Shown here: positions 1,733 to 5,410 of the stretch, one piece after another
Layout: each line of letters opens with the position of its first letter
Position numbering within the stretch: the first letter of the stretch is position 1
Origin: a virus
Virus record (IMG/VR): IMGVR_UViG_3300032245_000576
Coordinates: 1-36,066 of that record
Reading direction: 5' to 3' (one strand)
DNA length: 36,066 nt
Made by a program: the position numbers and the translations under genes
Notes under the pieces: generated by a model
Database searches by the model: none
Seen by the model: the letters and a program-made list of their open reading frames with translations, nothing else
Told to the model about the DNA's origin: nothing

Positions 1733-2272
1733 TTATGTGTTTCTAACTGGGGCATCAAGGGAATTGGCAGGCCCACTTGTACCGTGTTCAAGTCTACGAT
1801 AGCAATAACTACCACGAACTGAGTAGCCAGCGCGGCGATGCAGTTCCAAGAAGCCTGCTTGTTCGTGTCGCATTGTGGTTGAGCACACAATCTTTATACC
1901 ATAAGCACCACACCAAGTTTCTTGTATCGCAATCATGTCCTGTACCAATCGTACTCGTGTGCGGCCAGGCAATGACATGTCCAAGTGAATCATGCGTGTC
2001 ATTGACATTTCCTCATCCGACCAAGGTGCTCGTTGGTTGCGTATTGTCCACAGATAGGCCAAGATACAGCCAGTATCATTGGATTTAGCAACTGTTATCA
2101 GTTCCGACCCTGGTGTGTAAAACTGATTCACCACTGCCTGTGCCACATTGCGTGAATAGGCAATGGGGTCTGGAGTAAAGATATCATCTATCTCGTTTTG
2201 AAAATGTGTTTGTGCGATTGTGACTATGGGCACAATGTCAGTGCCTGCTGCTGGATGCCATGTGTATTTCAT
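1733..2272 (-). CDS. GNAT-like acetyltransferase, predicted leaderless
   Basis: A 179-residue protein starting MKYTWHP. The pattern of central strands, a basic loop LPGRTRVRLVQDM (about residues 105-117, resembling the acetyl-CoA pyrophosphate loop and following helix) and a C-terminal F-x-E-L-H-R-R-A-G-Y segment resembles GNAT N-acetyltransferases; many phages carry such orphans with unknown substrates. I chose the ATG at 2272 over an upstream ATG at 2305 because an AATAAATA octamer begins exactly 13 bases before it and no Shine-Dalgarno is present. Using 2305 would place the start codon upstream of that promoter. It is convergent with the Dps-like gene (38-bp gap) and divergent from the HNH gene. 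Family assignment is moderate. Confidence 0.65.
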   Translation of the reverse strand: MKYTWHPAAGTDIVPIVTIAQTHFQNEIDDIFTPDPIAYSRNVAQAVVNQFYTPGSELITVAKSNDTGCILAYLWTIRNQRAPWSDEEMSMTRMIHLDMSLPGRTRVRLVQDMIAIQETWCGAYGIKIVCSTTMRHEQAGFLELHRRAGYSVRGSYCYRRLEHGTSGPANSLDAPVRNT

Positions 2273-2277
2273 GCTTT

Positions 2278-2285
2278 TATTTATT
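2278..2285 (-). promoter_or_regulatory. T4-late-like promoter octamer (AATAAATA) for the acetyltransferase
   Basis: On the minus strand AATAAATA begins at 2285, 13 bases before the ATG at 2272. In T4 late promoters the octamer spans about -13 to -6, so the transcript would start on the A of the ATG. It forms one half of a perfect palindrome with the plus-strand octamer at 2289-2296. Confidence 0.6.
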
Positions 2286-2288
2286 AGC

Positions 2289-2296
2289 AATAAATA
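2289..2296 (+). promoter_or_regulatory. T4-late-like promoter octamer (AATAAATA) for the HNH gene
   Basis: AATAAATA begins 28 bases before the ATG at 2317. The predicted start near 2302 leaves a 15-nt leader carrying AAGGAGA (2304-2310). The same 28-base spacing recurs at 3688 and 11807, and the first 11 bases (AATAAATAACA) are shared with 3688. Confidence 0.65.
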
Positions 2297-2316
2297 ACAG
2301 CACAAGGAGAACTAAC

Positions 2317-2682
2317 ATGGCCGGAAGACCCAGAACAGAACTACGCACAAAAATATTTGACATTTGGACCAACCTAAACTACATCAATCGTCATCAGCAG
2401 TCAGGCACCAATGGTTGTGTGGAATGGACAGCAGGCAAGCATCGTCAAGGCTATGGCATGGTGGGTGCTTGGAGACTGGATGGCACCAAGATAATGACCA
2501 CAGTGCATCGTGTGTTGGGACGCATCAAATATAATCGTGCTCTTGCTGAAGATGAATACATTGTGCATACCTGTTCAAACATGAGTTGTGTAAATCCTGA
2601 TCATCTTGTGCTGGGTGATCGAAGCACCATACATCAAGTCATGCGGCAGAACCGACGCGGTAAACACTACCAAGACAAATAA
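2317..2682 (+). CDS. HNH homing-type endonuclease
   Basis: A 121-residue protein. The core is VHRVLGR (His64), then VHTCSNMSC (His84, Cys86, Cys91) and VNPDHLVLG (Asn93, His96), the Zn-knuckle HNH_3 arrangement C-x4-C with N-P-x-H-L seen in free-standing phage HNH nucleases. The family cuts DNA and often spreads itself or neighbouring sequence between phages. The ATG at 2317 has an excellent AAGGAGA 6 bases upstream and a late-type octamer 28 bases upstream. A strong bidirectional terminator follows 3 bases after the stop, so it is a monocistronic unit. Directly beyond lies the structured-RNA region, a typical insertion neighbourhood for mobile nucleases. Confidence 0.88.
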   Translation: MAGRPRTELRTKIFDIWTNLNYINRHQQSGTNGCVEWTAGKHRQGYGMVGAWRLDGTKIMTTVHRVLGRIKYNRALAEDEYIVHTCSNMSCVNPDHLVLGDRSTIHQVMRQNRRGKHYQDK

Positions 2683-2685
2683 AGA

Positions 2686-2709
2686 AAAAGCCCCAGTCGA
2701 GGGGCTTTT
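2686..2709. terminator. Bidirectional intrinsic terminator
   Basis: A perfect 9-bp stem, AAAAGCCCC (2686-2694) with GGGGCTTTT (2701-2709), has a 6-base loop; both strands end in a U tract. It closes the HNH transcript on plus, and on minus it lies 20 bases after the end of the 2730-2898 structured RNA. Confidence 0.88.
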
Positions 2710-2729
2710 CTGTATCACAACCAAAGGAT

Positions 2730-2898
2730 GTCAGGGCTGAAGAGCGGGACTAGGACAGATACCATGGCAACGGCATCAACTTGAAAAGGACCTCAATGAA
2801 CTCCTAACACTTTACCTTTAGGATATAGAGGGGTCTGCCCACTTCAGACTGCGTTTATCACTCATGTCGCGATTGATATGAGATCCTTCAGTCCTGAC
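2730..2898 (-). ncRNA. Candidate 169-nt late structured RNA, family unknown
   Basis: Read on the minus strand, GTCAGGACTGAAG (2898-2886) pairs with CTTCAGCCCTGAC (2742-2730): 13 continuous pairs, one of them G-U, closing a 143-nt interior. Inside are hairpins at 2861-2865/2878-2882, 2833-2837/2845-2849 and 2802-2807/2818-2823. A CATAAATA octamer on the minus strand (2911-2904) begins exactly 13 bases before base 2898, so by T4 geometry the transcript starts on the first base of the closing stem. The bidirectional terminator at 2709-2686 would end it, giving about 213 nt. There is no ORF of note inside. It begins just after the DUF3820-like stop codon. I do not recognise it as 6S, tmRNA or RNase P. 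Confidence 0.6.
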
Positions 2899-2903
2899 AA
2901 TTT

Positions 2904-2911
2904 TATTTATG
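2904..2911 (-). promoter_or_regulatory. T4-late-like promoter octamer (CATAAATA) for the 169-nt RNA
   Basis: Minus-strand CATAAATA starts at 2911 and overlaps the TAA stop (2909-2907) of the DUF3820-like gene. Thirteen bases on is 2898, the first base of the RNA stem. No start codon with a Shine-Dalgarno follows, so it serves an RNA and not a protein. Confidence 0.6.
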
Positions 2912-3116
2912 CTGACTTTTGAATAGTGCTGTTTTCACGGCGTAAACTGGGATATCTGCGTTGCAGTTCAATTGAAAACATGTCCGCAGTGGCCCTGTCC
3001 TTGCAGTTCAACACACCCCATTTGAGATATCCATCTGGAACTTCTTTGAGATATTTGCCTTTGTGAACGCCAAAAGGCATTCGTGTGTATGCGTAAACAT
3101 TATACCAATTTTTCAT
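2907..3116 (-). CDS. DUF3820-like small protein
   Basis: A 69-residue protein. Residues 13-34 carry the hallmark of the DUF3820 (QSregVF) family: MPFGVHKGK followed by LKEVPDGYLKWG. The family is common in phages and at the end of some exonuclease proteins, but its biochemical role is not settled. The ATG at 3116 is preceded by AAGGAGA at good spacing and by a TATAAT-like -10 box (3139-3134), so it has its own vegetative-type promoter, unlike the late genes. It lies between the two structured RNA candidates on the same strand, and read-through from the late promoter at 3632 would also cover it. Confidence 0.78.
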   Translation of the reverse strand: MKNWYNVYAYTRMPFGVHKGKYLKEVPDGYLKWGVLNCKDRATADMFSIELQRRYPSLRRENSTIQKSA

Positions 3117-3133
3117 TTGATTCTCCTTGAACT

Positions 3134-3162
3134 ATTATACAACCTCTTGAGATCTCTTGCGA
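3134..3162 (-). promoter_or_regulatory. Sigma70-type promoter for the DUF3820-like gene
   Basis: Minus-strand TATAAT lies at 3139-3134, about 18 bases upstream of the ATG. The -35 region (about 3162-3157) matches poorly and falls inside the GAGATCT arm of an inverted repeat, which may mean an activator or repressor acts here. Confidence 0.5.
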
Positions 3163-3190
3163 GATCTATTGAGTGTCTTCGCCACTCAAT
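3150..3190 (-). other. Two adjacent hairpins upstream of the DUF3820-like gene
   Basis: AGATCTC (3150-3156) and GAGATCT (3161-3167) form a perfect 7-bp inverted repeat; on the minus strand the loop is GCAA, a GNRA tetraloop. Next to it ATTGAGTG (3168-3175) pairs with CACTCAAT (3183-3190) around a 7-base loop. They may be the 3' end of the large minus-strand RNA candidate, an operator over the promoter, or both. On plus, the second hairpin is followed by GTTTTCTTTCTT and could end antisense transcription. Confidence 0.55.
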
Positions 3191-3199
3191 GTTTTCTTT

Positions 3200-3619
3200 C
3201 TTGATTGATGCCTGGGCGATGTTGGAGTCAGAATCACGCTGTCCGAGCAGCGTGACAGTGATGGGCAGCCATCATCAGATCCTAATAAACACACCATCTC
3301 TGGCTGGGCAGGTTTTGCTATCTCCCATTTCAGTGTCGAACATACGCAAGCAACAGCAGAATTAGGACTCTGAACTCTGTTGCTTTGTGGGGTACCTTGC
3401 GGCGTGTTATCCCACTCACTTTGAACCTGTACGATTGAGCAAACAGTTTGACTTCACAGTCGTTGTTTAGGGCATCCTCTCGGGTAGTGCTCAAAAGCCC
3501 CAGTAGCATCTGGGAACTGGCTACCGTCACACATCAGAACGGATTCACCAACGGTATTACAATCGGCCCGTCAACCTTTGTTGCTATTAGTATTTTTTGG
3601 ATTTACAAGATCCTTTTCA
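3200..3619 (-). ncRNA. Candidate large multi-branched structured RNA
   Basis: This stretch has no credible gene but is dense in helices: 3234-3241/3248-3255 (8 bp), 3259-3264/3269-3274, 3349-3356/3377-3384 extended by 3357-3360/3369-3372, 3387-3394/3408-3415 (8 bp with one G-U), 3441-3445/3464-3468 with 3450-3453/3458-3461, and 3483-3487/3521-3525 enclosing 3499-3503/3510-3514. Long-range pairs 3309-3314/3424-3429 and 3207-3212/3471-3476 nest these without conflict into a multi-branch fold. On the minus strand the terminal loops at 3454-3457 (GTGA) and 3397-3400 (GCAA), and the neighbouring loop at 3157-3160 (GCAA), are GNRA tetraloops; on plus they are not. A minus-strand ACTAAATA at 3632-3625 predicts a start near 3619. 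The fold resembles ornate phage RNAs such as GOLLD or ROOL only in general style; identity is unproven. Confidence 0.5.
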
Positions 3620-3624
3620 TACTG

Positions 3625-3632
3625 TATTTAGT
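3625..3632 (-). promoter_or_regulatory. T4-late-like octamer (ACTAAATA) upstream of the large RNA candidate
   Basis: Minus-strand ACTAAATA begins at 3632; a start 13 bases on falls at 3619. An ATG at 3620 opens only a five-codon frame, so the transcript is probably non-coding. A small hairpin (3613-3599) would form at its 5' end. Confidence 0.5.
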
Positions 3633-3640
3633 GCAATGAC

Positions 3641-3678
3641 AAAAAAGCCAAGATTTTCCCTTGTGATTTGGTTTTTTT
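3641..3678. terminator. Intrinsic terminator or insulator between divergent late promoters
   Basis: AAAAAAGCCAA (3641-3651) pairs with TTGGTTTTTTT (3668-3678), with one G-U pair; the T8 run at 3672-3679 follows the stem on plus. It lies between the minus octamer at 3625-3632 and the plus octamer at 3688-3695, so it would stop plus-strand read-through just before the new promoter. Confidence 0.65.
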
Positions 3679-3687
3679 TGGTATTCT

Positions 3688-3695
3688 AATAAATA
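3688..3695 (+). promoter_or_regulatory. T4-late-like promoter octamer (AATAAATA)
   Basis: AATAAATA begins 28 bases before the ATG at 3716. The predicted leader near 3701-3715 contains AAAAGGAG. Spacing and flanking bases copy the HNH promoter at 2289. Confidence 0.65.
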
Positions 3696-3715
3696 ACAGT
3701 ACAAAAGGAGTTATC

Positions 3716-4138
3716 ATGGCTGAATTCAAATACAAACGCAAGCAGGAAATGGAACCTCGCCCCGGGCAGAAGTTTGCCACAGTTTATATCAAGCAAACTG
3801 ATTTAGAACACGCAAGGTTGAGAAACTGGTTGGTGCAAGTGGCAGAACATATTTTGGGTGTGTGTGAAATCAATGCCAGCATGGCTGAATGGTTCAGTTC
3901 ACCACACAGAGACTTCAAGAAAAGTGTGCGTGGTGAATTCTACACACCCGAAGATCTCTTGACAGACATGATCAATCAGTTGGCACTGGGTCGCGATTTG
4001 CCGGAAGCAATGTTGAATCGTTGGAATCGCTTGGTGGAGTCAACGCCCTGGGAGATCCAAATGATTCCAGAAGCCGAACGCAGGGTTCAGGCAGGGGCTC
4101 GTGGTAAAGACTCTTTTCGAGCCATATTCCACGCTTGA
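3716..4138 (+). CDS. Unknown 140-residue protein with its own late promoter
   Basis: I do not recognise this protein. It starts MAEFKYKRKQEME, is mixed charged and mostly helical, and has several Trp residues (NWLVQVAEHIL, AEWFSSPH, NRWNRLVES, TPWEIQM), suggesting a compact folded domain. No signal peptide, membrane segment or metal motif is seen. The ATG at 3716 is chosen over one at 3668 because AAAAGGAG lies just upstream and the earlier ATG falls inside a terminator and ahead of the promoter. It is monocistronic: promoter at 3688, and a hairpin at 4172-4188 between it and the convergent minus-strand gene. It may be a late accessory factor. Confidence 0.75.
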   Translation: MAEFKYKRKQEMEPRPGQKFATVYIKQTDLEHARLRNWLVQVAEHILGVCEINASMAEWFSSPHRDFKKSVRGEFYTPEDLLTDMINQLALGRDLPEAMLNRWNRLVESTPWEIQMIPEAERRVQAGARGKDSFRAIFHA

Positions 4139-4442: not shown

Positions 4443-5081
4443 TTATATCACTTGCACAGCCACAGGCTGATAGTTGCCGCCTGACACCCAACCTATGTAT
4501 CTGTAGTCAGTGCGTTCTTCTTGCCAGGCACGGAACTCGTGTTGCTGCCATCCAGGATAGTTCCAGTATTCATCAAACACAATGATGGTGCCAGGTTGGA
4601 TTCGATCACGCAGGTGTGCAAACACATCTCGTGTGGCCTGATACAGGTCGCAGTCAATGTGTATCAAACTTGCTGGACCCGGGTGTTGAGCACACCAATC
4701 AGGCAGGGTTTGGTCAAAGCGTCCCACCACCAAGTGAACATTGGCAGGCACTGCAGGAGGTTTCTGTGCAAAGTGTCCGGCTTTCATGCCATTCCAGTCT
4801 TCGTAAATGCCTTCAAAGCCATCAAAGCCGTAAATGTCATGCGTGGGAAACAGTTGAGCCCAGTGTCTGATGCTACGCCCAGTGGCCACACCAAACTCCA
4901 AGATGTATCCACCTTGTAGCACCTGCCGACTCACTGCCTGGTGCAATCGCAAATCACTGTGGTATGCAGGCACTGCCGCCATGTGTTGCTGTCGATACAG
5001 TTCACTGTCCGCTGTCCGCTGTGGCCGGGGTGCATTGCGATAACGCCAGGCCTGCTGGATGTCGTCTAGGATGTATTTCAT
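4443..5081 (-). CDS. TylF/MycF-like SAM-dependent methyltransferase
   Basis: A 212-residue class I methyltransferase. The SAM-binding loop is LEFGVATGRS (61-70), followed by an acidic strand end GFDGFEG (85-91), HIDCDLY (141-147, likely metal and substrate side) and IVFDEYW (167-173). This order matches the macrocin O-methyltransferase (TylF/MycF) family, whose members methylate sugar hydroxyls using Mg2+; phage members probably act on glycans or nucleotide sugars, but the substrate is unknown. I take the ATG at 5081, which overlaps the upstream stop as ATGA, instead of 5126, which would overlap it by 49 bases. It is last in the operon led by the promoter at 5791-5819, and a terminator follows. 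Confidence 0.8.
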   Translation of the reverse strand: MKYILDDIQQAWRYRNAPRPQRTADSELYRQQHMAAVPAYHSDLRLHQAVSRQVLQGGYILEFGVATGRSIRHWAQLFPTHDIYGFDGFEGIYEDWNGMKAGHFAQKPPAVPANVHLVVGRFDQTLPDWCAQHPGPASLIHIDCDLYQATRDVFAHLRDRIQPGTIIVFDEYWNYPGWQQHEFRAWQEERTDYRYIGWVSGGNYQPVAVQVI

Positions 5082-5410
5082 TCTGCGGCCTCTTCGTAGT
5101 CTGGTTCTAATCCCAAGCGATTGCACATATCAAGCGCAATGAGTTCTGGTAGACTGCCAACTGCTTTTTCGCAACCGCCCCATTCGTCATCTTTCAGCAC
5201 CTGACCATTGAAGTGTTCTTCAATCCACCAATAGCCATTGCCATTGTTATCACGCCAGGTAATCTCTACCGAGTTGCCGTCATCATCTTCGCCATAAGCG
5301 TGTTCGCCTATTTGGTCATAGCAAAGATAATCCAACAACAGTTTTCTTGCTGTGTCGGGATCAATGTGTCCGCGTAAGATATCAAAAGATTGTTGTGATT
5401 CTGCTTTCAT
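5078..5410 (-). CDS. Unknown acidic 110-residue protein
   Basis: I do not recognise this protein. It is strongly acidic (ends DYEEAAE; EDDDGNSVEITWRDNNGNG in the middle) with an aromatic patch (YWWIEEHF around residues 61-68). The ATG at 5410 is chosen because GGAG lies about 7 bases upstream; a longer frame to 5512 would run through a GC-rich hairpin region. Its stop overlaps the methyltransferase start (ATGA), so the two are translationally coupled. Small acidic phage early proteins are often DNA mimics or host-protein inhibitors, but nothing here proves that. Confidence 0.7.
   Translation of the reverse strand: MKAESQQSFDILRGHIDPDTARKLLLDYLCYDQIGEHAYGEDDDGNSVEITWRDNNGNGYWWIEEHFNGQVLKDDEWGGCEKAVGSLPELIALDMCNRLGLEPDYEEAAE

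Follow-up and report, generated by a model that had tools for sequence, protein, structure and literature searches.

Does the gene-free stretch at positions 3117-3715 of a viral DNA encode a structured RNA, and if so, to which class does the RNA belong? In the window (the whole stretch of 36,066 nucleotides analyzed, from IMG/VR record IMGVR_UViG_3300032245_000576), this region holds no gene according to an ORF survey. On its left lies a gene for a small 69-aa protein (2907-3116, minus strand) with a partial match to PF12843 (QSregVF_b; Pfam 25 bits against a cut-off of 22; PHROG 3628), and on its right a divergent 140-aa gene (3716-4138, plus strand), whose N-terminus resembles those of genes near the RNA in contigs L017, L218, and L228. 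The first-pass annotation had described many nested helices in a gene-poor stretch here, an observation borne out by the survey, and had proposed a large multi-branched RNA of the minus strand, either GOLLD or ROOL or a new one. Large structured RNAs without a known job are rare.

Conserved structure of the minus-strand RNA

Fold energy, which had been suggested as a check, did not settle the matter: the minus strand differs little from shuffled sequence (z = -1.63 for 3117-3640 and -0.61 for 3200-3619), and the plus strand equals or betters it (-2.05 for 3117-3640). Single-sequence folding was thus rejected as proof because it is not significant. Homologs were found through the downstream protein: in two viral contigs reached in this way, the DNA upstream of its gene shares 78-79% identity with the window over ~650 nt, a span that includes the RNA. 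Further relatives were collected by patterns made from the conserved core and a 24-nt motif, and chance matches were removed. The main alignment consists of seven window-like viral RNAs, namely, the window RNA and six viral relatives. Its RNAalifold consensus has 94 pairs, 23 of which show compensatory change. In a hand-drawn model with 86 pairs, 22 pairs are changed on both sides among the seven RNAs, against 7.9 +/- 2.0 after shuffling (none of 500 shuffles reaches 22) and at most four when the partners are slid by 1-3 columns. In the 5′ domains of 21 diverse window-like sequences, 12/20 pairs are compensatory (vs. 6.3 +/- 1.0). The first covariance model, made from a mixed alignment, gave seven pairs and was left unused.

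A structured minus-strand RNA at 3150-3586 is therefore real, and most of the local helices drawn at first pass are upheld by compensatory change. It is hardly tenable that a non-coding stretch folds by chance here or that a coding region is hidden in it: the insignificant fold energy of the single sequence would fit chance folding, but the covariation above all shuffles and slides refutes it, and hundreds of relatives exist. A conserved protein frame, named beforehand as a sign against the RNA, was sought in all six frames, and no open frame is conserved across the seven homologs, every one of which has stops in all six.

The strand was also assigned correctly at first pass, since G-U pairs, whose complements could not pair, are retained among relatives, and since matches to RF01718 (Polynucleobacter-1; see below) and to its relatives have the same orientation. 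Judged from the seven-RNA alignment, the whole conserved RNA has ~437 nt, from a 5′ end at ~3586 to the terminal hairpin P13 ending at 3150, ~50 nt past the 3′ limit drawn before. A late-type octamer at ~3632-3625 had been taken as a promoter with a start at 3619; a sigma-70 scan of the minus strand recognized no promoter, and the conserved RNA begins at ~3586. No terminator was recognized on this strand, P13 being followed by no U run. As the 140-aa gene is divergent from the RNA, a putative promoter of the RNA's own is implied between 3586 and 3716, from which it would be transcribed.

From the 5′ end (all positions on the minus strand), the RNA starts with UAGCA (3582-3586), the 5′ strand of pseudoknot PK1, and hairpin P1 (3550-3572; 3572-3568 with 3554-3550) follows, with 5/5 pairs compensatory in the 21 window-like sequences. 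The 24-nt motif UGAAUCCGUUCUGAUGUGUGACGG (3524-3547) includes hairpin P2 (3542-3539/3527-3524), and its degenerate form, TGAATCCRYTCTGAWRTGWGRYGG, occurs in 108 IMG/VR contigs, 53 of which are a blast cluster of RF01718-type RNAs. Hairpin P3 (3499-3514; 3514-3510 with 3503-3499), again with 5/5 pairs compensatory in the 21 sequences, carries in its loop the 3′ strand of PK1, UGCUA (3504-3508). Stem P4 (3435-3494; 3494-3489 with 3440-3435) shows compensatory change and encloses P5, P6, and the core CACUACCC..AGGAUG (3489-3473), which defines the superfamily. Hairpin P7 (3387-3415) with its inner helix P7b (3403-3401/3396-3394) has two compensatory pairs and, in most relatives, a GNRA loop; hairpin P8 (3350-3383; 3383-3377 with 3356-3350) has four such pairs; and P9 (3305-3327) contains the conserved GGAGAUAGCAAAACCUGCC, common to the chromosomal copies described below. 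Hairpin P11 (3234-3255) forms in the window and is weak in the seven-RNA alignment, where 51% of cells are paired and RNAalifold favors a shifted register with 10 pairs. Hairpin P12 (3168-3190), with four compensatory pairs, is followed by P13 (3150-3167; AGAUCUC-GCAA-GAGAUCU), the 3′-terminal hairpin of the 86-pair model.

PK1, which covaries, pairs the P3 loop with the segment that directly precedes AAGG. The mean longest Watson-Crick run between its strands is 5.57 in window-like RNAs, against 4.17 +/- 0.20 with partners permuted. The corresponding values are 6.83 vs. 5.22 in the RF01718 type with the 24-nt motif and 5.35 vs. 4.09 in a third type; the remaining RF01718 type shows a small excess, 4.04 vs. 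3.77. In each of these groups, the observed value exceeds the permuted maximum. Two long-range pairs were proposed at first pass. Conservation refutes 3207-3212/3471-3476, of which relatives retain between 0 and 5 of the 6 base pairs; 3309-3314/3424-3429 is doubtful, its GGUU/AACC core being kept and the remainder not. The three GNRA loops are conserved in part: that at 3394-3403 is GCAA or GAAA in 5/7 RNAs, and the other two vary.

Kinship with Polynucleobacter-1 and comparison with ornate RNAs

A cmscan of the window against GOLLD, ROOL, and the rest of Rfam, as the first-pass annotation had advised, gave no family at threshold. With relaxed limits, the best E-value belongs to RF01718 at 3432-3576 on the minus strand (20 bits; cut-off 37), corresponding to the 5′ domain. 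The match spans model positions 1-141 of 141, with E = 0.035 (all Rfam, 524 nt) and E = 5.7e-4 in a single-family search of the whole record. Two viral relatives score better than the window (27.4 and 25.1 bits), and scanned members of the 53-contig RF01718-type cluster reach 59.5-79.8 bits. These intermediates link the two ends of the series: PK1 is found in both, and the 24-nt motif, by occurring in the RF01718-type cluster, bridges the window RNA to Polynucleobacter-1. Because its score is below the Rfam cut-off, the window RNA is not a member by Rfam's criterion and is classed as a variant; within the Polynucleobacter-1 superfamily, it forms a divergent branch. In the relatives that were scanned, the only Rfam families above threshold were RF01718, tRNA, tmRNA, and, at another place, one leader with a marginal score.

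The two branches, which align across the full 141 positions of the model, agree in how their 5′ elements are ordered and have the same CACUACCC..GGAUG core, the same pseudoknot between the 5′ end and the P3 loop, and a covarying 3′-terminal hairpin, whereas their middle and 3′ sequences are strongly different. When 84 RF01718-type RNAs were aligned over ~500 columns, 49/102 pairs covaried, and the consensus energy was -170.6, compared with -36.0 +/- 4.9 for column-shuffled alignments. A covarying pseudoknot, AGCG loop with CGCU, was found in this alignment by the G-test. The structure extends to the 3′-terminal hairpin, ~450 nt from the 5′ end, which covaries in all of its eight pairs. Therefore, the Rfam model, which stops at 141 nt, covers only the 5′ third: both branches are ~430-450 nt long, and what Rfam files as an “sRNA” appears to be a part of a large pseudoknotted RNA. 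Weinberg et al. (2010) listed it as probably cis-regulatory (PMC2864571). In our literature search, RF01718 was named only in that discovery paper, and no functional paper was found. In columns 318-333 and 371-386 of the RF01718-type alignment, two GGAUGAU-like copies change in step, from GG..G to AG..A. The concerted change may be a clade marker, reflecting a single clade split, or may point to a shared trans partner; it was set aside as evidence for the former reason.

The first-pass annotation named the right rivals in GOLLD and ROOL. The RNA is neither, and as a Polynucleobacter-1 branch, it is not wholly new either. GOLLD identity is excluded by direct model search: in a dedicated search with RF02032, 0/20 superfamily records matched at E <= 10, and the Rfam scan of the window showed no GOLLD match that reached the gathering score. 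ROOL gave no gathering-level match in the window or the scanned relatives and no weak match in 2680-3720, and this identity was rejected. Both are recently solved phage classes and form RNA-only cages (PMC12286853). Like the ornate classes, the window RNA is large, multi-branched, pseudoknotted, and conserved in structure. It resembles GOLLD as a large, ornate, phage-borne environmental RNA without known function, some of whose relatives lie near tRNA or tmRNA genes; GOLLD differs in size. ROOL is likewise large, multi-branched, and pseudoknotted; it occurs in phages and prophages and is frequently located close to tRNA islands (PMC12286853). The window RNA has another genomic context. OLE is also a large ornate non-coding RNA, but again no Rfam match connects the two, and OLE is a separate, dimer-forming class (PMC12286853).

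Relatives in phages and bacterial chromosomes

At least 248 IMG/VR contigs fall into connected groups or carry the motif, comprising at least 178 RF01718-type, 25 window-like, 25 third-type, and smaller groups; some of these contigs are 300-370 kb long. Thus, a widespread ornate RNA has so far been known only as a fragment. Among the 18 phage records searched, RF01718 matched in 16 at E <= 0.1, with 15 over the cut-off and the largest record being 372 kb. Relatives number in the hundreds; their carriers are large phages, most of them uncultured, and some bacteria with small genomes. The phage records G013, G007, and G488 carry two or three distinct subtypes each, the additional ones elsewhere in the contig, and L318, L319, L320, and L328 are single large phage contigs with two or three different subtypes. 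A blastn search of INPHARED phages with the window region and two related RNAs gave nothing. For some relatives, a tRNA or permuted tmRNA gene is located only a few kb away; for example, phage tmRNAs of the permuted (betaproteobacterial) type are found at 2297-2683 of L209 and 11505-11828 of L027, a few kb from a superfamily RNA.

In chromosomes, RF01718 was found in 4/399 genomes from the order to which the named Betaproteobacteria MAG L045 belongs, and in 6/61 genomes of the genus of G052. A window-type covariance model, for which the 5′ domains of viral window-like RNAs were the sole input, matched in 23/101 genomes of this small-genome genus, which falls in the order of the MAG and is probably one of Burkholderiales (best E 3.6e-24, from a short calibration). 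In a class-wide sample, it matched in 1/369, the already known G052, under strict filters and with few candidates scored per genome. In a first pattern scan of genome contigs, 14 matches were discarded, as their surroundings were unlike the RNA. Alignment of eight chromosomal and six phage RNAs reveals shared blocks along most of their length, e.g., AAAGTGAGTGGG, TGCGTA, and GGAGATAGCAAAACCTGCC. The window RNA is homologous both to the RF01718-type RNAs and to the chromosomal copies. The host of the phage is probably a freshwater member of Burkholderiales, as suggested by the Rfam description and the kinship search.

The surroundings of the chromosomal copies are uniform in one respect. All 11 copies from the RF01718 search, and 11/12 examined copies of the window type, are divergent from a gene with a DUF6641 motif, which was confirmed by Pfam as PF20346 for three neighbor genes. 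Just 3′ of the RNA, a gene resembling tyrosine recombinases (PF00589-like) is present for six copies or more. The region 8534-9273 of L297, among other chromosomal copies, shows the conserved divergent RNA/DUF6641 pair, followed 3′ of the RNA, in some islands, by a tyrosine recombinase of ~200 aa. In host chromosomes, the partner or regulator of the RNA would most likely be the DUF6641 protein. Chromosomal copies in small genomes, this candidate protein, and a clear structural model make a tractable system.

Leader, mobile cassette or stand-alone RNA

Is the RNA a part of an mRNA? With no promoter or terminator recognized on the minus strand, it may belong, as the 5′ portion, to the mRNA of the 69-aa gene, whose start codon lies 33 nt beyond the end of the RNA, acting as a riboswitch-like leader in its 5′ UTR. 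A PF12843-type gene is detected by motif downstream of at least 7/25 window-like RNAs, and further ones by eye, so that a cis role in this subgroup is possible, and the 2010 view of Polynucleobacter-1 points the same way. Nevertheless, a leader is quite improbable. In the other groups, no PF12843-type motif was found close to the RNA. In 37/83 informative cases, the gene that follows an RF01718-type RNA lies on the other strand, so that these RNAs are not leaders; downstream genes differ among them and among the chromosomal copies; and at 437 nt and with its pseudoknots, the window RNA is big for a leader. A constant place upstream of one gene class on the same strand was not found. In phages, RF01718-type RNAs often adjoin a co-oriented GIY-YIG gene (SegE, PF19835), and the upstream genes of window-like RNAs are variable; PF12843-like and SegE genes were both dropped as universal partners, being absent from other groups.

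A mobile cassette of the RNA and DUF6641, joined by the recombinase in some islands, might also be considered, serving as a selfish, defense or addiction element from which the phage copy was captured or against which it acts. The divergent gene pair, the recombinase, the patchy distribution, and the SegE gene beside many phage copies would all suit such an element. However, no DUF6641 match is over the cut-off in 20 phage records carrying the RNA, several DUF6641 loci are without a recognized RNA, and no toxin-like or known defense domain was seen, which makes the cassette an unlikely explanation.

Since the neighbors differ between phage groups, the locus is best read as encoding an ornate RNA that acts in trans. 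We consider it reasonably probable that the locus encodes a stand-alone large structured ncRNA of the Polynucleobacter-1 branch, in a phage probably of freshwater Burkholderiales. After transcription from its own promoter, the RNA would fold into a particle with many branches and with pseudoknots, closed at its 3′ end by P13, and would act in trans, presumably being expressed during infection. Its job might be that of an RNA scaffold or compartment, or a host-takeover factor, like GOLLD and ROOL; scaffolding, cage formation, and oligomerization are suggested by analogy to these two (PMC12286853). A broader picture is tentative and rather doubtful: the superfamily may be a widespread ornate phage RNA class, with the Rfam motif as its 5′ third, whose two or three subtypes in a large phage assemble into a possibly hetero-oligomeric particle for infection, and the RNA and DUF6641 of host islands may be a competing or exploiting element.

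Elsewhere in the window, an HNH endonuclease gene (2260-2682, plus strand) is followed by a GC-rich stem with a T run at ~2686-2710, which looks like a terminator, and a methyltransferase-like gene (PHROG 6608) is found at 4443-5126 on the minus strand.
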